From contig NZ_CP017479.1 of the NCBI RefSeq assembly GCF_001761465.1, positions 3,100,001 through 3,164,000 on the forward strand: a stretch of 64,000 nt of DNA, read 5' to 3'. The translations under genes were made by a program, and so were the position numbers. Positions 22,299 to 50,788 of this stretch are shown one piece after another. A model generated the notes under the pieces. It was not told where the DNA came from, made no database searches, and worked only from the letters and a program-made list of their open reading frames with translations. Position 1 is the first letter of the stretch. Every line of letters starts with the position of its first letter. Source of the DNA: Flavobacterium gilvum (GTDB lineage Bacteria > Bacteroidota > Bacteroidia > Flavobacteriales > Flavobacteriaceae).

Positions 22299-22368
22299 TT
22301 AGAATATTTAAATAGTTGAAAAAAGAGAGGCAAATTTTATGCCAAAAAAACTCCTAAAAGCAGTTATG

Positions 22369-24406: not shown

Positions 24407-24952
24407 TTATCCCTTAATCCAATTCACTACTTCAGGGTCTGTTGGTAATGTTTTTGGGGCAATTACTTTTACCAATTCTCCTTTTTCATTAATAAGGTAT
24501 TTTTGAAAATTCCATTTAACTTCAGAATCTTCTAATCCATTTTTAGATTTTTGTGTCAAAAACTGATAAACAGCGCACATATCATCACCTTTTACCGAAA
24601 CCTTGTCCATCATCGGGAAGGTAACACCATAATTCAACTGACAAAAAGTTGCAATTTCTTCTTTGGTTCCCGGTTCTTGCGAAGCAAAATTATTGGCAGG
24701 AAAACCAACAATCACAAACCCTTTGGATGAATATTCTTTATACAAAGCTTCCAAATCCTTATACTGAGGAGTTAATCCGCATTTTGAAGCGGTATTTACA
24801 ATCATAACTTTTTTGCCTTTAAGCGTTGCAAAGTCAAAAGTCTTACCGTATAAATCTTCAACCTTAAATTGATATATTGTCTGTTTCACTTGTGCTTGAA
24901 TTTGGATACTAAAAAGGAACATAGCGAATATCGCTACAACTAGTTTTTTCAT
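24407..24952 (-). CDS. Exported glutathione peroxidase-like (thiol peroxidase) protein
   Basis: A 181-residue protein with a signal peptide ending near IQIQAQ (residue 21). The family pattern is complete: KGKKVMIVNTASKCGLTPQYKDLEALY with the peroxidatic Cys near residue 58, GFPANNFASQEPGTKEEIATFC with the catalytic Gln and possible resolving Cys near 86-103, and VKWNFQKYLINEKGE with the catalytic Trp-Asn near 144. Bacterial members usually take electrons from thioredoxin. Export suggests a periplasmic role, which needs a thiol donor there. The terminator downstream and the RNA array upstream show it is monocistronic. Confidence 0.92.
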   Translation of the reverse strand: MKKLVVAIFAMFLFSIQIQAQVKQTIYQFKVEDLYGKTFDFATLKGKKVMIVNTASKCGLTPQYKDLEALYKEYSSKGFVIVGFPANNFASQEPGTKEEIATFCQLNYGVTFPMMDKVSVKGDDMCAVYQFLTQKSKNGLEDSEVKWNFQKYLINEKGELVKVIAPKTLPTDPEVVNWIKG

Positions 24953-25070: not shown

Positions 25071-25194
25071 AAAAAAGCCTCAAAAAGAGGCTTTCCACTT
25101 ACTAACTAAATAATAATTAACTCAATTTAGATTCCCCCCTTGTAAACTATTTTATAAATCTATTAAAATTTACAAAATCTAAATAAACCAATCA
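25071..25194 (-). ncRNA. Candidate sigma-54-driven small RNA, unit A
   Basis: One of five related minus-strand units. A -24/-12 element TTGGCATGGTGTTTGG spans 25221-25206. The predicted transcript of ~124 nt has a closing stem ATTTAGATT/AATCTAAAT (25176-25184 with 25125-25133), an inner TTGTAAA/TTTACAA stem and a run of six G just before the closing strand. It ends in the hairpin GCCTC-AAAAA-GAGGC with seven T (25070-25091). The start is set 12 bases after the -12 element. No ORF is present. The terminator stem differs from the GATG...CATC stems of units B-E, so unit A is the most diverged. Confidence 0.6.
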
Positions 25195-25205
25195 TATAAA
25201 AGCAA

Positions 25206-25221
25206 CCAAACACCATGCCAA
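25206..25221 (-). promoter_or_regulatory. Sigma-54-like -24/-12 promoter of unit A
   Basis: TTGGCATGGTGTTTGG, with GG and GG ten bases apart, close to the TGGCAC-N5-TTGC consensus of RpoN. Confidence 0.6.
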
Positions 25222-25549
25222 AAACAGATTAAAAGTAAATTACATAGATAAAATACATTATTTAACAATATAAACAGGTTTTAATCTACAAATAAACCAT
25301 AGTATTACACAATTCAATCTTAACTAAACCACTATGCACTTCAAGTCCATAGGTTTGGTTGGCAGACTTAAAGTACGCAAGGATGGAAGACATAATTTAA
25401 ACCACAAATTTCCACAAAATAATCCGTAAAAATTTGTGCAATTTGTGACATAAAAACTTTTTAGAAGCTGAAAGCGGAATGCACTAAAGTACATAGTTTT
25501 AAACTATTTTTGAAACCAATAAATTGAAACTTAAACTTGGTTTTGGACA

Positions 25550-25687
25550 AAAAAAAGATGCCCCTAAAAAGGGACATCCCAATAACTAACTGTAATCGAT
25601 AATTTTTTTTGGCACTCTGTATATGCAAACCTATTATTAACCTAACTTTAAAACCTTAGAGTAACCAAACCTAGCCAAATTATCTAT
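25550..25687 (-). ncRNA. Candidate sigma-54-driven small RNA, unit B
   Basis: The promoter element TTGGCATGGAGTTTGA occupies 25714-25699. The ~138-nt transcript has a closing stem of GATAATTT with AAATTATC (25677-25684 and 25598-25605), extended by GGC/GCC and an ACTCT/AGAGT pairing inside. It then has the linker GATTACAGTTAGTTATT and a terminator GATGTCCC/GGGGCATC with eight T (25549-25578). The loop carries TAGGTTTGGTT, shared with unit D. It lies between units A and C, and no ORF is seen. Confidence 0.6.
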
Positions 25688-25698
25688 TTATATACTTT

Positions 25699-25714
25699 TC
25701 AAACTCCATGCCAA
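25699..25714 (-). promoter_or_regulatory. Sigma-54-like -24/-12 promoter of unit B
   Basis: TTGGCATGGAGTTTGA on the minus strand. The -12 dinucleotide is GA rather than GC, the weakest match of the five. Confidence 0.5.
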
Positions 25715-25867
25715 AAAACGTCCGAATGTAAAATATGACGTTAAATTATACTTAATAAACAAAATAATAACCCTATTTAGCATTAAAAAAATCAATTTAA
25801 TTACAAAACAACTAAAAAACAAAACCTAAGGGGATTTAAAAAAATTCAATTACCCCACTTCAATTAC

Positions 25868-25991
25868 AAAAAAAAGATGCACCAAAAGGAGCATCTTTAA
25901 ATCGATAATCTCTTGTAGATACGCCGCTTTTACTAACTTAATAGTCTAACCTACAAAACTTAGATTAAAAACAACCCAATTAAATTATCTG
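25868..25991 (-). ncRNA. Candidate sigma-54-driven small RNA, unit C
   Basis: The promoter element TTGGCACAGTGTTTGT occupies 26018-26003; it is the only copy with the full TGGCAC -24 box. The ~124-nt transcript closes with GATAATTT and AGATTATC (25982-25989 and 25904-25911; one G-U pair), has an inner TTGTAG/CTACAA stem, and ends at GATGCTCC-TTTT-GGTGCATC followed by eight T (25868-25895). Its promoter begins only about 20 bases from the terminator of unit D, so the array is tightly packed here. Confidence 0.6.
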
Positions 25992-26002
25992 GTACCGTAT
26001 TT

Positions 26003-26018
26003 ACAAACACTGTGCCAA
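26003..26018 (-). promoter_or_regulatory. Sigma-54-like -24/-12 promoter of unit C
   Basis: TTGGCACAGTGTTTGT on the minus strand, a perfect TGGCAC-N5-TTG core. Confidence 0.6.
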
Positions 26019-26039
26019 AATTCTGAACTACATTTTTAC

Positions 26040-26176
26040 AAAAAAAAGATGCCTCATTTGAGACATCTTCTTAACTAAATAATAACTGATAATTATTAGG
26101 CCCCCCTATGCAAACAAATTTTATAAACCAAACCTACTATAACTATTTATGATGCTTGCATAACCTAATAAAACCT
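26040..26176 (-). ncRNA. Candidate sigma-54-driven small RNA, unit D
   Basis: The promoter element TTGGCATCGTCTTTGC occupies 26203-26188 and has the canonical GG-N10-GC spacing. The ~137-nt transcript closes with TATTAGG and CCTAATA (26164-26170 and 26094-26100), has an inner TATGCAA/TTGCATA stem and a six-G run before the closing strand as in unit A. The linker TTATTATTTAGTTA is shared with unit A. The terminator is GATGTCTC/GAGGCATC with eight T (26040-26067). Confidence 0.6.
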
Positions 26177-26187
26177 AATACATATTA

Positions 26188-26203
26188 GCAAAGACGATGC
26201 CAA
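26188..26203 (-). promoter_or_regulatory. Sigma-54-like -24/-12 promoter of unit D
   Basis: TTGGCATCGTCTTTGC: exact GG-N10-GC, the best overall match to the RpoN consensus in the array. Confidence 0.6.
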
Positions 26204-26482
26204 AACGCATCTAGGTTTAGTAAAAATAAATACTCCCTACATACCTACACAACCAATACTCTTATTTACAACTAATTACATTTTAAAAATATTTTGTTTT
26301 TTTTTCAAACAATAACCTTCCATATATTTTTTTTGAAAAAAATCTTGAAAAAACCACGAGTTTGAGACAATAATTTTGAATCAGTCATCGTGAAAACGTG
26401 TCAAAAACATTAAACAACGAAGACTTATATTAATTTGAAAAGTGTATTTTTGATTTTTAATAAAAAATATCCCCTCCTAACT
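26204..26482. other. Region between unit D and the SGNH gene
   Basis: An AT-rich segment with no ORF. It contains TAGGTTTAG just upstream of the unit D promoter and a TATTTTTG box at 26444-26451, which fits the -7 consensus for the plus-strand SGNH gene. If unit D is RpoN-dependent, its activator would be expected to bind in this segment. Confidence 0.4.
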
Positions 26483-27571
26483 ATGCATTTTTTTTTCAAG
26501 TACGGTCTTATTCTAGTTTTATCATTAAGCAGCTTAACCAGTTTCTGTCAGCTACAAATTAAACCCAACAATAAAAAAATCTCCTATATGGGAAGGGTAG
26601 CAATAAACGAAAACTCTGCGACTTTTTACTGGCCAGGAACTTCTGCAACAATTAATTTTACAGGAAAAAACGTAAAAGTTACGATGAAATCGTTCCGAGA
26701 AAAAGGATATTTTTATGCTATTGTAGATAACGATGCAGCAAAGGCTTTTAAATTTGAAACAGACAGCGTAAAAAAAGAAATCAACCTGGTAGAAAACCTT
26801 TCTGAAGGCAAACACACATTACAATTGTATAAACTTTCTAACAACACCTCTGCCAACGTTTTATATGGTTTCGAAATTGGTGGAAAAGCAAAACTGCAAA
26901 AACCATCTCAGCTGCCTAAACGAAAAATAGAATTTTACGGAAACTCTATTACTGCAGGTCATGGCGTTGATGTTCAGCCGGGAATGAAGGATGCTGGACA
27001 ACCCGAACTTTTCAACAACTATTACAGCTATACAGCCATAACGGCTAGACACTTTAATGCACAATCATCTATCATTGCCAGAAGTGGTATCGGAATCATG
27101 TTAAGTTGGTTTCCTGAGATTATGCCTGAAGTTTATGATCGTCTGGATCCTTTTGATTCTTCAAAAAAATGGGATTTCGCGAAATATACTCCTGATGTGG
27201 TTGTGATAAATCTGTTTCAAAATGATTCCTGGCTAATTAACAGACCCGAACATCAGGAATTTAAACACCGGTTTGGCACAACAAAGCCTTCAGAAGATTT
27301 TATAATAAAATCGTATCGCGATTTCGTTACCAGCATTCGGGCTAAATACCCAAAAGCGTATATCATTTGCGCATTAGGAAACATGGACGCTACAGAAGCG
27401 GGCTCAAAATGGCCGGGATATATAGAACAAGCTGTAGCAGGTTTGAAAGACGGAAAAATTCATACTGTTTTCTTTCCTTACAAAGGAAGACCTAATCATC
27501 CAAACAGAAAAGAACAACAAATGATGGCTGATGAATTAATTCGCTTTATTGATAAAACAGTAAAGTGGTAA
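26483..27571 (+). CDS. Exported SGNH/GDSL-type carbohydrate esterase
   Basis: A 362-residue protein with a signal peptide ending near TSFCQ. The ATG at 26483 is preferred over 26435 because a TAnnTTTG box (26444-26451) lies between them and because it begins directly with the signal sequence. The N-terminal ~120 residues fit the jelly-roll domain of CE2-type acetylxylan esterases (ATFYWPGTSATINFTGKNVKV). The SGNH part begins IEFYGNSITAGHG, where FYGNSIT carries the catalytic Ser, with VVVINLFQNDSW giving the Asn block and NHPNRK near the end the catalytic His. It probably removes acetyl groups from polysaccharide. It sits inside the small-RNA array, in the opposite direction. Confidence 0.85.
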   Translation: MHFFFKYGLILVLSLSSLTSFCQLQIKPNNKKISYMGRVAINENSATFYWPGTSATINFTGKNVKVTMKSFREKGYFYAIVDNDAAKAFKFETDSVKKEINLVENLSEGKHTLQLYKLSNNTSANVLYGFEIGGKAKLQKPSQLPKRKIEFYGNSITAGHGVDVQPGMKDAGQPELFNNYYSYTAITARHFNAQSSIIARSGIGIMLSWFPEIMPEVYDRLDPFDSSKKWDFAKYTPDVVVINLFQNDSWLINRPEHQEFKHRFGTTKPSEDFIIKSYRDFVTSIRAKYPKAYIICALGNMDATEAGSKWPGYIEQAVAGLKDGKIHTVFFPYKGRPNHPNRKEQQMMADELIRFIDKTVKW

Positions 27572-27621
27572 AACCAAGAGAAGCTTCAAATACTTCAAAA
27601 TTATTCATTAGAAAATGAAAT

Positions 27622-27745
27622 AAAAAAAGATGCTCCGATAAGGGAGCATCTTCCTAACTAACTGTAATCGATAATTTTATGAATATGTGTATAAACCAAC
27701 CTACCAACCTAATCTACAATATATTTGGAGTAATAAAATTATCTA
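27622..27745 (-). ncRNA. Candidate sigma-54-driven small RNA, unit E
   Basis: The fifth unit, separated from D by the SGNH gene. The promoter element TTGGCATGGTGTTTGG (27772-27757) is identical to that of unit A. The ~124-nt transcript has the longest closing stem, an 11-bp perfect pairing of GATAATTTTAT (27733-27743) with ATAAAATTATC (27670-27680). It shares the linker TTATCGATTACAGTTAGTTA with unit B, and ends at GATGCTCC/GGAGCATC with seven T (27622-27650). The terminator also lies 50 bases past the SGNH stop and may act on that gene from the other side. Confidence 0.62.
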
Positions 27746-27756
27746 TTATCAACTTT

Positions 27757-27772
27757 CCAAACACCATGCCAA
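27757..27772 (-). promoter_or_regulatory. Sigma-54-like -24/-12 promoter of unit E
   Basis: TTGGCATGGTGTTTGG, identical over 16 bases to the unit A element. Confidence 0.6.
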
Positions 27773-27862
27773 TAGTTGATCACAAGCATACTACAAGACA
27801 AAATTACATTTTATTTAACTAAAAATCAGCTTTTTATTAAAAAAAATCAAAATATTTCAAAC

Positions 27863-27921: not shown

Positions 27922-30900
27922 TTATTTCTTATAAAACTTTCTGTACTTAGGATACGTTATAGCTCCGATTAACGAGATTGTACCCAAAGAATACCAAATC
28001 CAGCTTAACGAATGTGCCTCACCGCTGGCGTATGAATGTAATCCTACCAAGTGGAAATTTACTCCATAATAGGTAAATAAAATGGAGATAAAAGCAAACA
28101 TACTCATCAGGTTAAACACCCATTTACCTCTTAATGAAGGCACAAATCTAGCGTGAATAACAAATGCATATACCATAATACTGATCAATGCCCAAGTTTC
28201 TTTTGGATCCCATCCCCAGTAACGCCCCCAACTTTCATTTGCCCATTGTCCTCCAAGAAAGTTCCCGATGGTTAACATAATCAAACCAATGGTCAATGCC
28301 ATTTCGTTGATATAAGTGATTTCTTTGATGTTCAAATCCATTTTAGTTTTATTCTTTTCGTTGGTAAAAAAGATTAAAACAAGCGACACAAAACCTAATA
28401 TCATTCCCAAAGCAAAAGGTCCATAACTAGCCACAATTACTGCCACGTGAATCATTAACCAATAGGAATTAAGAACAGGTTGCAAATTGGCTATTTCCGG
28501 ATCAATCCAATTGGCATATGCAGCCGTTAATATCATTGCCGTCACAAAAGCGGCCGAAGCAACCGTCAATTTTGATTTAATATCAAACACCAAACCAAAA
28601 AACATGGTCGCCCACGCCACATATACAATAGCTTCATAAGCATTACTCCAAGGTGCATGACCAGAAATATACCAACGGGCACATAAAGTAATAGTATGCA
28701 ACACAAAAAGAATGGCTATGAGAATATGCATTGAATTAACCAAAACATTTAAAACTTTGGACTCTTTGAATATTTTAACAATAGTAAATATCAACATTAA
28801 TATTGCTGCTAATAAATAGGCATAAGGCAGTTTTTGCAGTAAATCATACTTATTGTAAGCTATTTCAAGATTGATTTTTTCTTCGCTTGGTCTCACTCTG
28901 CTACCAAACTTCTTCTGAAAACCGTTAATGCTTTCCAATAACTCATTGGCAGTTTTATAATTTTTCGATTCAATAGCATGTCCTAATGTTCCAAAATAAA
29001 GCGGCAAAATGCTTTTGGTATAAGTAGAATCCATTCCTTTTAAGCCAGCGTGTTCCAGTTCTAAATAGGAAATCCATTTATTATTTGGTTCATTTGGAAT
29101 TGGAAAAATTCGCAAAATACTTCCGCTTAAAGCAGATTCCATCAAGTTTACCTTTTTATCGGTTTCGACAAAATCTTTCTCAAACTGATTTGGATTTCCG
29201 GCTTTATAAGCATCATCAAGATATGGAGATAATTTATAATTCCCCTTTTCGTCAAAAAAAGCAATAAAAGGAGCAAATTTATCTTTTGGGTCAATTCCGA
29301 TAATCTTACGAATACTGTCATTTCCAGGTTTGATATAGATAATCGGAATTTCAATCCACAATTGTGCGCTTTGCGTCATGGACAAAAATACCTGATCCGA
29401 ATTCATTCCGTTATACGTATCCGAATGGCTTACTTTTCGCAACAATTCAGATGAAAAAGTATTGATTGGTTTCATCCTTCCTCCCGCATCCTGAATAATC
29501 AATCGTCCAAATTTGGCTGCGTGTTCTGGCGTAACTGTATAAGCCGTCAACACCGAATCTAATTGTGCCTGAGTAGGTTTTACCCTTACATGACCTGTAC
29601 TTTCAGTATGTGATTCTCCAGCTTTTTCAGCCGAATGGTCGTGATTATGTTCCTGCGCAAAACCAGTCAAACTGAATAATAAAATTAAAATCGTCAGCAG
29701 TTTTGCTTTCTTTTCTTTCACCACATCCAATTTTCTTTTCAAATCAGCAAAACGGGAATGTTTGGTAAATAGAATAGAAATCATACTAAAAAACAGTAAA
29801 AAATATCCCAAATAAGTAATATTCGTTCCCCAATAATCATGATTTACAGACAATACAGTTCCTTTTTCGTCTGGGTCAAATGAAGATTGGAAAAAACGGT
29901 AGCCTCCGTGATCCAAAACGTGATTCATATAAATTCGGGCATCAAATGGTTTTACAGAATCCTGAACGGTTACTTGGCTTTCAAATGAAGAATAACTTTT
30001 CTCTGTACCGGGATATTTTTGGGCAATAAAATCATTCAGCTTAATCTTAAATGGCAAGATATAAGCTTTGCTTCCGAAGAAAAAAGTATATTCATGTTCT
30101 CCAATTTTAACGGTTTTAGAATCCCCAACTTTCCCTTTGGAACCTATTAATGTTACAGATTCCTCTTTTCCATTTGCTGAAAGCGTAACCGTCAAAGCGT
30201 CTTCATGATTCTTTTCTTTGAAATTATTACTACTTTCATAATCGATTACACCAGTAACAGCAGGCTCCGGAAAAACAAAACGAATATCGCCAATGCTGTA
30301 CAAAGAGCGCATCATCAACGGCTGCACAATATCTTTCACCACTTTTCCCTGCAGTTTATCGGCCATTCGCATAAAGTTTCCTTCAAATGGCATTTGAACC
30401 GTATAACTACTTCCTGTTGTGTTGATATTAATGGCACCTTCGGTAAATTTATTCAATGCAAAAAGAACATTATGAATATTTTGCACCTCGCCAGATTTCA
30501 AAAAATGTTCTTCACGACCACCGGCACCAGCCTCAACCAATTTCAAGTACAAACTCCCTTTCGAATTAGGTTTTACATATTCTTTGGCACCCATAATAAA
30601 GTTTTTATAGTGTACCTCAAACGGATTTCCGGCAAAATCGCCAGTCATCTTAAAATCATTGTCAGTGACAGGTGACATCAAAAGCGGTTTCTCAAAAACC
30701 CTGCGTTTCATTTCCCCTTTATATTCTCCATCAACAAAAAGGGTCAGGAATGTTTTATCCGAATAAAATTGATTTTCGGTTGCGCCTTCGCGAATGGGCA
30801 TCATTCCCTCAAAACTAATGTAACGGGTAATGAATGCACCACCTATGATAAAAATAAAAGCCAAATGTAGCATCAACGAAGCCCATTTTTCTTTTCGAAG

Positions 30901-31113
30901 TAAATGATAACGCTTGATATTCCCTATGAAATTAATCATAAAAAATCCCATGATAGCTTCAAACCACCAAGTATTATACACTAAAATTCGTGCTGTATCA
31001 GTATTGTATTTACTTTCGATAAAAGTTCCTGTTCCCATTGCTATTGCAAAAGTCAGGAATAATAAGGCCATTAAACGGGTAGAAAATAGGACAGAGAATA
31101 ATTTTTTATCCAT
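27922..31113 (-). CDS. Cytochrome c biogenesis protein CcsBA (ResB-CcsA fusion)
   Basis: A 1063-residue polytopic membrane protein that exports heme and ligates it to apocytochromes c (System II). The open frame extends 52 codons upstream, but the ATG at 31113 begins MDKKLFSVLFSTRLMALLFLTFAIAMGTGTF, a normal first helix, and a TACTTTTG box (31145-31152) lies between the two starts. The N-terminal ~480 residues are ResB-like with a large periplasmic loop. A His-rich segment (EHNHDHSAEKAGESH) and a Bacteroidota-specific periplasmic domain follow. The C-terminal ~350 residues are CcsA with the heme motif WGRYWGWDPKETWAL near 964. Single-gene fusions are usual in Bacteroidota. Confidence 0.93.
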   Translation of the reverse strand: MDKKLFSVLFSTRLMALLFLTFAIAMGTGTFIESKYNTDTARILVYNTWWFEAIMGFFMINFIGNIKRYHLLRKEKWASLMLHLAFIFIIGGAFITRYISFEGMMPIREGATENQFYSDKTFLTLFVDGEYKGEMKRRVFEKPLLMSPVTDNDFKMTGDFAGNPFEVHYKNFIMGAKEYVKPNSKGSLYLKLVEAGAGGREEHFLKSGEVQNIHNVLFALNKFTEGAININTTGSSYTVQMPFEGNFMRMADKLQGKVVKDIVQPLMMRSLYSIGDIRFVFPEPAVTGVIDYESSNNFKEKNHEDALTVTLSANGKEESVTLIGSKGKVGDSKTVKIGEHEYTFFFGSKAYILPFKIKLNDFIAQKYPGTEKSYSSFESQVTVQDSVKPFDARIYMNHVLDHGGYRFFQSSFDPDEKGTVLSVNHDYWGTNITYLGYFLLFFSMISILFTKHSRFADLKRKLDVVKEKKAKLLTILILLFSLTGFAQEHNHDHSAEKAGESHTESTGHVRVKPTQAQLDSVLTAYTVTPEHAAKFGRLIIQDAGGRMKPINTFSSELLRKVSHSDTYNGMNSDQVFLSMTQSAQLWIEIPIIYIKPGNDSIRKIIGIDPKDKFAPFIAFFDEKGNYKLSPYLDDAYKAGNPNQFEKDFVETDKKVNLMESALSGSILRIFPIPNEPNNKWISYLELEHAGLKGMDSTYTKSILPLYFGTLGHAIESKNYKTANELLESINGFQKKFGSRVRPSEEKINLEIAYNKYDLLQKLPYAYLLAAILMLIFTIVKIFKESKVLNVLVNSMHILIAILFVLHTITLCARWYISGHAPWSNAYEAIVYVAWATMFFGLVFDIKSKLTVASAAFVTAMILTAAYANWIDPEIANLQPVLNSYWLMIHVAVIVASYGPFALGMILGFVSLVLIFFTNEKNKTKMDLNIKEITYINEMALTIGLIMLTIGNFLGGQWANESWGRYWGWDPKETWALISIMVYAFVIHARFVPSLRGKWVFNLMSMFAFISILFTYYGVNFHLVGLHSYASGEAHSLSWIWYSLGTISLIGAITYPKYRKFYKK

Positions 31114-31144
31114 TTGGAAGTAGATTTCGTTTTTATAAAGTGTC

Positions 31145-31152
31145 GCAAAAGT
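31145..31152 (-). promoter_or_regulatory. -7 promoter element for ccsBA
   Basis: On the minus strand TACTTTTG fits TAnnTTTG, 32 bases before the chosen start at 31113. Confidence 0.6.
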
Positions 31153-31275
31153 ACTCAAAATTGCACACTTTTTTAAGACCTTAATTGTTAATTTAATCAA
31201 AAAAAGAGCCTTTTTTTTGATTAAAACAAAAACCAAAAATCCCTTTTTACAAAAAAATTCTAACTGCAAAAAAAT

Positions 31276-50714: not shown

Positions 50715-50788
50715 GGCCTCGTGGCGCAACTGAATAGCGCATCTGATTACGGCTCAGAAGGTTACTGGTTTGAATCCAGTCGAGGTCA
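50715..50788 (+). tRNA. tRNA-Arg(ACG)
   Basis: A 74-base cloverleaf: acceptor GGCCTCG with CGAGGTC (one G-U), D-stem GCGC/GCGC, anticodon stem TCTGA/TCAGA with loop TTACGGC giving anticodon ACG, and T-stem ACTGG/CCAGT. CCA is not encoded (the sequence continues ACA...). Its last 13 bases form part of the integration site of the mobile element that follows. Confidence 0.95.

Follow-up and report, generated by a model that had tools for sequence, protein, structure and literature searches.

The window analysed here, 64,000 nucleotides (nt) of the Flavobacterium gilvum genome (contig NZ_CP017479.1, positions 3,100,001 to 3,164,000), contains a tandem array of five putative small RNA (sRNA) genes, u1 to u5, all on the minus strand at 25071-27772. 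They are situated between a cytochrome c biogenesis gene (27922..31269 (-)) and a glutathione peroxidase-like gene (24407..24952 (-), 115 bases after u1), which are called ccsA and gpx here; the best match of ccsA is TIGR03144 CcsB at 182.3 bits, slightly below the 187.6 cut-off, and the gpx matches are below curated cut-offs as well. In the direction of transcription, the first unit after ccsA is u5, whose sigma-54-type promoter TTGGCATGGTGTTTG (27758..27772 (-), located by motif search) precedes a subfamily B RNA at 27622..27745 (-) with a predicted start at 27745. Its closing stem, P1, was derived from folding and covariation, with the coordinates of the 5' arm (27733..27743 (-)) and the 3' arm (27670..27680 (-)) set by eye, and its terminator hairpin (27624..27655 (-)) was identified both by a terminator scan and by our own script. 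Next is u4, in which the promoter TTGGCATCGTCTTTG (26189..26203 (-)) is followed by C, providing the sole GC at -13/-12 in the array. The u4 RNA (26040..26176 (-)) belongs to subfamily A, carries a G-rich bulge on its 3' arm, and ends in a terminator and T-run at 26040..26072 (-), as determined by script and folding. The u3 promoter, TTGGCACAGTGTTTG (26004..26018 (-)), starts 21 nt after this T-run and precedes a subfamily B RNA (25868..25991 (-)) with its terminator near 25873-25898, after which come the u2 promoter TTGGCATGGAGTTTG (25700..25714 (-)) and its own subfamily B RNA (25550..25687 (-)), with a terminator hairpin at 25555..25580 (-) that was found by both the scan and the script. 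The array closes with u1, which shares the promoter sequence TTGGCATGGTGTTTG (25207..25221 (-)) with u5, encodes a subfamily A RNA with the G-rich bulge (25071..25194 (-)), and has a terminator hairpin at 25072..25096 (-), likewise found by both approaches.

The preliminary description of this locus had placed five minus-strand units at these coordinates and all of them were located there. Its transcript starts (25194, 25687, 25991, 26176, and 27745) were reproduced exactly when counting 12 nt from the -12 position, and the RNA lengths of 124-138 nt, each with a terminator hairpin and T-run, were found for all five units. The spacing of the promoter elements required correction, as it is actually TTGGCAY-N4-TTTG rather than TTGGCAY-N5-TTTG, and the units, which had been described as devoid of open reading frames, do contain short ones, the longest being 17 codons from a TTG.

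Several results argue that the array is more than a chance assembly of motifs. Four copies of the pattern TTGGCAYNGNGTTTG exist in the 4.4-Mb genome, each of them inside the array, and its reversed version does not occur at all. The looser pattern TTGGCAYNNNNTTTG is found 23 times in the genome, including 5 times in the array, compared with 13 for the reversed control; taken alone, this loose motif is not rare and is only mildly enriched. When a sigma-54-type site was combined with a terminator T-run located 110-170 nt further on, the window yielded five occurrences, which are precisely u1-u5 (at 143-158 nt), and none were found on either strand of a 400-kb sample from the same genome. The terminator scan tool lists only u1, u2, and u5, whereas our script detects all five. 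The folding energies of all five RNAs also fall below those of shuffled sequences (z -2.7 to -5.0). We have little doubt that this gene family is real. It is a clade-specific sRNA family for which no prior description was found in the open-access literature searched, and the predicted sigma-54 promoters are well supported by sequence in most of its members.

When examining the distribution of the family, a covariance model of the kind proposed in the preliminary description was built from ten units and searched in 398 Flavobacterium genomes, which did produce matches in further members of the genus (11 genomes at E <= 1e-3). One of these (G344/L157, E 5.9e-4) contains none of the three motifs searched and was judged unrelated, leaving ten genomes. 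Among 80 named loci fetched by ccsA, that of Flavobacterium aquicola (L044) has two RNAs (E <= 8e-12), and the best model score among the other 79 is E 0.063. After matches above E 5e-6 were left out (13 of 38), the family comprised 25 members in 11 Flavobacterium lineages, with five copies in the window, three each in G094, G167, G150, and G112, two each in G397 and F. aquicola, and one each in G259, G287, G156, and G030. Because of stricter filters, weak matches are lost in the genus- and family-wide searches, and the E-values of the model are rough. A ccsA protein tree with 46 rows contains 35 named ccsA loci that lack the RNA; the other genus genomes, two loci that were too short (L045 and L046), and G056 are not on it. 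In this tree, the 11 carriers are grouped in a single clade (100/100 support), and the carrier label requires only one change. The genome G056, which has no model match, carries a TonB-receptor leader similar to those of the carriers G156 and G287; it is absent from the tree and may represent a loss of the array inside the clade. A refined model was also run on 397 family genomes representing 237 genera, and besides the window's genome it yielded two weak matches in one genome each (E 2.3e-4 and 2.8e-4), values at which about 0.1 chance matches would be expected over 397 genomes, with the E-values again rough. The first of these (G679/L271, E 2.3e-4) lies within the last codons of an open reading frame and was judged unrelated. 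The other, from a different genus (G522/L272, L273:9436-9453 (-)), has a textbook promoter TTTGGCACGGAGATTGCA followed by a GGTTGGTTAGTTAG stretch and a terminator hairpin; this unit is possibly a distant cousin of the sRNA family.

All 25 members are located downstream of ccsA on the same strand, with 24/25 lying within 150-2701 bases, and the exception is a single copy (L155) found 4.7 kb from ccsA and 155 bases before gpx. This copy, together with the presence of gpx downstream on the same strand in 9/11 contexts and its location <=230 bases from the last unit in six of them (the window, L150, L152, L044, L154, and L155), would be expected if the units were intergenic repeats or cis-acting leader elements of gpx. 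However, gpx is separated by 2.4-6.6 kb from the last unit in L124, L153, and L156 and does not occur in the fetched stretches of L149 and L151 (6.5 and 7.6 kb downstream), and in all of these loci the units are intact. Furthermore, every unit of the window comes with a promoter-like site and a terminator of its own, no additional copies are detected by the model in the window's genome at E <= 1e-3, and covariation supports an RNA. We regard a repeat or leader origin as very improbable.

Most members share the long-range closing stem P1 and all have the terminator. In a 25-row alignment, 92.8% of the P1 and terminator cells are paired and 14/20 pairs exhibit two-sided changes, neither of which is reached by any of 500 shuffles, and sliding the partners reduces the pairing to 45-65%. 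Because this alignment had been fitted to the structure, its pairing score is favoured, but an unfitted ten-row alignment still has 89.7% of its cells paired (1/500 shuffles) and 13 two-sided cells (0/500). RNAalifold recovers P1 unaided in subfamily B. Covariation shows that a conserved long-range stem closes the RNA. Some of the structural results are less favourable: in the unfitted alignment, the number of pairs with two-sided changes is matched by 11/500 shuffles and the count of further pair types does not exceed the shuffles (302/500), RNAalifold predicts only the terminator and not P1 for subfamily A, and P1 is present in the single-sequence minimum-energy folds of just 14/25 members. 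Beyond the common stem, subfamily A (13 rows) has a G run on the 3' arm and the loop AGTAGGTTAGGTTTA, exact in 6/13, while subfamily B (12 rows) has AGATAATTT/AAATTATCGATTA-like arms. The motif AGGTT (AGGUU in the RNA) occurs in 21/25 members and TTAGTTA (UUAGUUA) in 15/25, mostly in the linker before the terminator.

The promoters were originally taken to be RpoN-type, for which GG-N10-GC is the known form. GG-N10-G is indeed found in all five window units, but the next base is G, A, T, C, and G in u1-u5, respectively, so the textbook GC exists in u4 only. Family-wide, 18/25 members have a GG-N10-G site of the sigma-54 type, including 5/5 in the window, and G occupies -13 in all 18. For calibration, we used the grpE and groES sites of the same genome, where GroES and GroEL were assigned by Pfam and GrpE and DnaJ were identified as well. 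The grpE site, TTTGGCAGTACTTTTGCA, is GG-N10-GC and the groES site, TATGGCACAATTTCTGAA, is GG-N10-GA. In F. psychrophilum, grpE, groES, and the sRNA Rfp36 have SM4 (sigma-54-type) promoters (PMC9723704). Two features of the sites count against sigma-54: the -13 G is followed by A in 12, T in 3, and G in 2 of the 18 sites, and by the textbook C in a single one, and 7/25 members lack a sigma-54-type promoter altogether. Among these seven, four have a housekeeping-type TAnnTTTG near the same place, one has TAnnTTTG 25 bases upstream, and two have neither. Control of the family by RpoN, as first proposed, would therefore hold for most members, but the promoter type is not a defining feature of the family.

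The same observations could be accommodated without sigma-54 if TTGGCAY were bound by an activator and TTTG served as the -7 box in a promoter of the housekeeping type. Such an arrangement would fit L153 and L155, where the TAnnTTTG box has its TTTG in register with that of the sigma-54-type sites, below the same upstream element (described below), and it would fit the rarity of C at -12 (1/18) as well. However, no TTGGCAY-type member (0/18) has TAnnTTTG within 25 bases, and across all 25 members the two site types never occur together within that distance. In addition, the GG-N10-G spacing is maintained in 18/18 sites, the same layout is found at the grpE and groES promoters of this genome, the latter also having GA, and u2-u4 show no evident upstream element. 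A housekeeping promoter with a bound activator is accordingly quite improbable, and sigma-54 promoters in the window units are probable. The alignment of the TTTGs in L153 and L155 suggests that one promoter type may have been converted in place into the other, with the TTTG kept. Two further sites were set aside. Among the units, the scan reports an E. coli-like -35/-10 (TTGGCA-16-GATAAT) at u5 alone, and a perfect GG-N10-GC just before menD (22331-22345 (-)) has no counterpart in six relatives and was treated as chance.

The upstream element, AAACTTA ... ATGTATTTTRTCGATAAAATTTGCTTTTAAT, is a conserved sequence that precedes many members (L044, L149-L156) and is nearly palindromic in its centre, around ATTTTATCGATAAAAT. 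In the window, the DNA upstream of u1 (25222..25265 (-)) resembles the relatives' conserved ATGTATTTT-TCGAT-AAAT / TTTGCTTTTAAT form and constitutes a possible activator site, while a weaker copy lies upstream of u5 (27773..27820 (-)); the bounds of both were set by eye. Two aspects of this element count against sigma-54 control. It is recognised clearly at u1 but only weakly at u5, with no evident copy at u2-u4, and it precedes both promoter types, TAnnTTTG members included. For these reasons, it may bind a separate activator. At u3, with a promoter only 21 nt past the u4 T-run, a proximal activator site would need to lie within the transcribed DNA of u4, which suits enhancer-type activation.

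The window's genome encodes one rpoN. However, RpoN is found in 333/333 good genomes of the genus and in 384/398 of all, which counts against using it as support for the proposed control. Its presence is uninformative given that it is universal in the genus, and it was dropped as evidence; only the distribution of the RNA is special. The activator had been considered unknown, yet candidates do exist. Eight proteins match PF00158 above the cut-off, with two strong matches (235 and 229 bits) and six at 22-34 bits. One strong candidate is encoded near grpE-dnaJ, 2.6 kb after dnaJ (L274:5755-6918 (+)), and has a receiver and an AAA+ domain with no recognised DNA-binding domain. The other adjoins lptE, about 2 kb from groESL, and combines AAA+ with a Fis-type helix-turn-helix. 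The activator domains of these two candidates map to genome positions 1714974 and 2012174.

The obvious question is whether the array corresponds to any described RNA. The preliminary description knew of no similar family and had cautioned that Flavo-1 and other Bacteroidota motifs of Rfam be excluded; none of the units scanned matches any Rfam family. With Rfam 15 at gathering cut-offs, no unit in the window has a match, and at E up to 10 the array region has six matches, the best at E 2.1 and all far under the gathering scores. Among the loci of nine relatives (L124, with three units, was left out), the only Rfam family found was Flavo-1, outside the units. That match (L150:12732-12818 (+), 68.3 bits) is located in the part of that locus facing ccsA, and its presence elsewhere in L150 demonstrates that the scan was able to detect Flavo-1. 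Flavo-1 (RF01705) resembles the array in being a small structured flavobacterial RNA. The Qrr sRNAs of Vibrio, which act in LuxO- and Hfq-dependent quorum sensing, are likewise multicopy sRNAs with sigma-54-type promoters, but they belong to another phylum. They are included in the Rfam library, and the units have no match to Qrr either at gathering cut-offs or at E up to 10.

Two likenesses are closer phylogenetically. One comes from Flavobacterium itself, where Rfp36 of F. psychrophilum, a putative regulatory RNA, is included in a mapped set of transcription start sites with an SM4 promoter and shows that sRNAs with promoters of the sigma-54 type exist there. It was compared here by description only, and the SM4 genes among which it is listed serve protein quality control, the envelope stress response, and gliding (PMC9723704). 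FopS of Bacteroides thetaiotaomicron resembles the array as a multicopy paralogous Bacteroidota sRNA family with intrinsic terminators, but it is reported to have canonical sigma-ABfr promoters, a single-stranded 5' seed stretch, and 14 members in intergenic, antisense, or 3' untranslated positions (PMC11697453). In the array, by contrast, the 5' end is held in the closing stem, the genes are in tandem, and 18/25 members have sigma-54-type promoters, although the other seven could have housekeeping-type promoters. By its promoter and 5' structure, the array is not FopS.

Based upon these features, several proposals can be made regarding the function of the array. The five units would be independent sRNA genes in tandem, all belonging to one clade-specific family and each having its own promoter and terminator. 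RpoN-RNA polymerase would transcribe each unit from its own -24/-12 promoter after one of the two strong sigma-54 activators switches the units on. The RNAs should rise upon protein-folding or envelope stress, since sigma-54-type promoters in the genus serve chaperones, Lon, and envelope genes. Once produced, exposed G/U-rich stretches (AGGUU and UUAGUUA) might pair with A/C-rich mRNA leaders and thereby lower envelope protein translation during stress. We presently regard trans-acting sRNAs of a sigma-54 proteostasis/envelope-stress response as the best explanation of the sequence data, with a probability of roughly 0.6. The more specific proposition that they act by base-pairing falls slightly short of even odds. 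The proposed logic, in which a stress sigma factor induces sRNAs that reduce envelope protein, parallels that of the sigma-E-dependent omp-repressing enteric sRNAs (PMC1804206). Both the sigma factor and the RNA are different in that case, and for the array the target step is a proposal.

The pairing step was the subject of several computations. GGUU and UUAG are abundant in the RNAs and are complementary in kind to the A/C-rich leaders at SusC genes. Duplex energies were computed, with ten shuffles per RNA, between the five RNAs and three sets of regions, namely 278 sampled gene starts, 238 coding interiors, and 29 SusC/TonB leaders. The complement of the u3 loop, CTAACCTAC, is present 8 times in the genome, one of which is u3 itself, versus 50 for the reversed control. 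Three of its other seven sites are near gene starts: the first spans -22 to -14 relative to a TonB-receptor start, the second begins 36 nt ahead of the start of a secreted-protein gene, and the third is 40 nt inside another start. The remaining four are elsewhere. The TonB-receptor site (L187; G000:C1:1175881-1175889 (+)) is the best single target, and in G150 it differs by one base that would still permit a G-U pair. Allowing one mismatch, AAACCTAACCTA gave 25 sites versus 164 for the reversed control, mostly away from starts, and was set aside. Overall, these tests yield no convincing target, which is a genuine weakness of the base-pairing proposal. The duplex energies with SusC leaders are 0.6-3.8 standard deviations better than those of the shuffles, but coding interiors reach up to ~3. 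Exact complements in start regions, pooled over the five RNAs, are not above 200 dinucleotide shuffles, and the TonB-receptor site is exact in 0/9 other sRNA-bearing genomes and 0/17 others. The best single-RNA excesses of exact complements were those of u4 on SusC leaders (15/200 shuffles as high, k = 8) and u3 on starts (17/200, k = 8), with u5 at 20/200 both on starts (k = 7) and on SusC leaders (k = 8); a similarly strong value was obtained for u4 on coding interiors (16/200, k = 7).

This lack of confirmation makes a decoy function a serious rival, in which the repeated GGUU, UUAG, and GUUAG motifs would titrate an RNA-binding protein, such as an RRM protein like RbpB of Bacteroides. The titration of CsrA by CsrB provides a precedent. 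After removal of promoters and terminators, the 25 RNAs contain 69 GGTT versus 27.4 expected from dinucleotide shuffles, 76 TTAG versus 39.6, and 34 GTTAG versus 7.5, and both GGTT and TTAG are found in 25/25 RNAs, with several copies in most. However, the 25 RNAs are homologous, so this motif excess counts one ancestral sequence many times. We know of no binding motif of a flavobacterial RNA-binding protein. RbpB does bind the multicopy FopS sRNAs (PMC11697453), but RbpB also acts jointly with base-pairing sRNAs. Taken together, we consider a decoy role unlikely. Base-pairing is the common mode for sRNAs of this type and for this reason was retained as the likelier of the two.

A further-reaching version of the sigma-54 stress-response proposal can also be envisaged. 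Sigma-54 would run an RNA arm of the proteostasis/envelope-stress response, in which a duplicating array, induced together with GroEL, GrpE, and DnaJ, would shut down envelope protein synthesis, and whose members would have moved between housekeeping-type and sigma-54 promoters with the TTTG kept. This scenario is doubtful in its entirety, but if true, the sigma-54 RNA arm would parallel the sigma-E/MicA-RybB circuit, the envelope-stress sRNA circuit of enteric bacteria, having evolved in a different phylum and with a different sigma factor. To our knowledge, few Bacteroidota sRNAs outside Bacteroides are understood, and the family is a candidate example of stress control by RNA, about which little is known in this phylum. 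The array is compact and easily deleted, its sigma factor and starts are predicted, there are two candidates for its activator, and sister species provide natural variants of the promoter; the array lets one test directly whether flavobacterial sigma-54 stress control has a post-transcriptional arm.

Finally, two other features of the window deserve mention. An esterase-type gene (26435..27571 (+); its AxeC2 match is below the cut-off) lies between u5 and u4. It has no tblastn match in 11 other stretches, ten of them sRNA-bearing, and for this reason it probably entered the array recently, within the window's lineage. The sole Rfam match in the window at gathering cut-offs is a tRNA at 50715-50788 (+).

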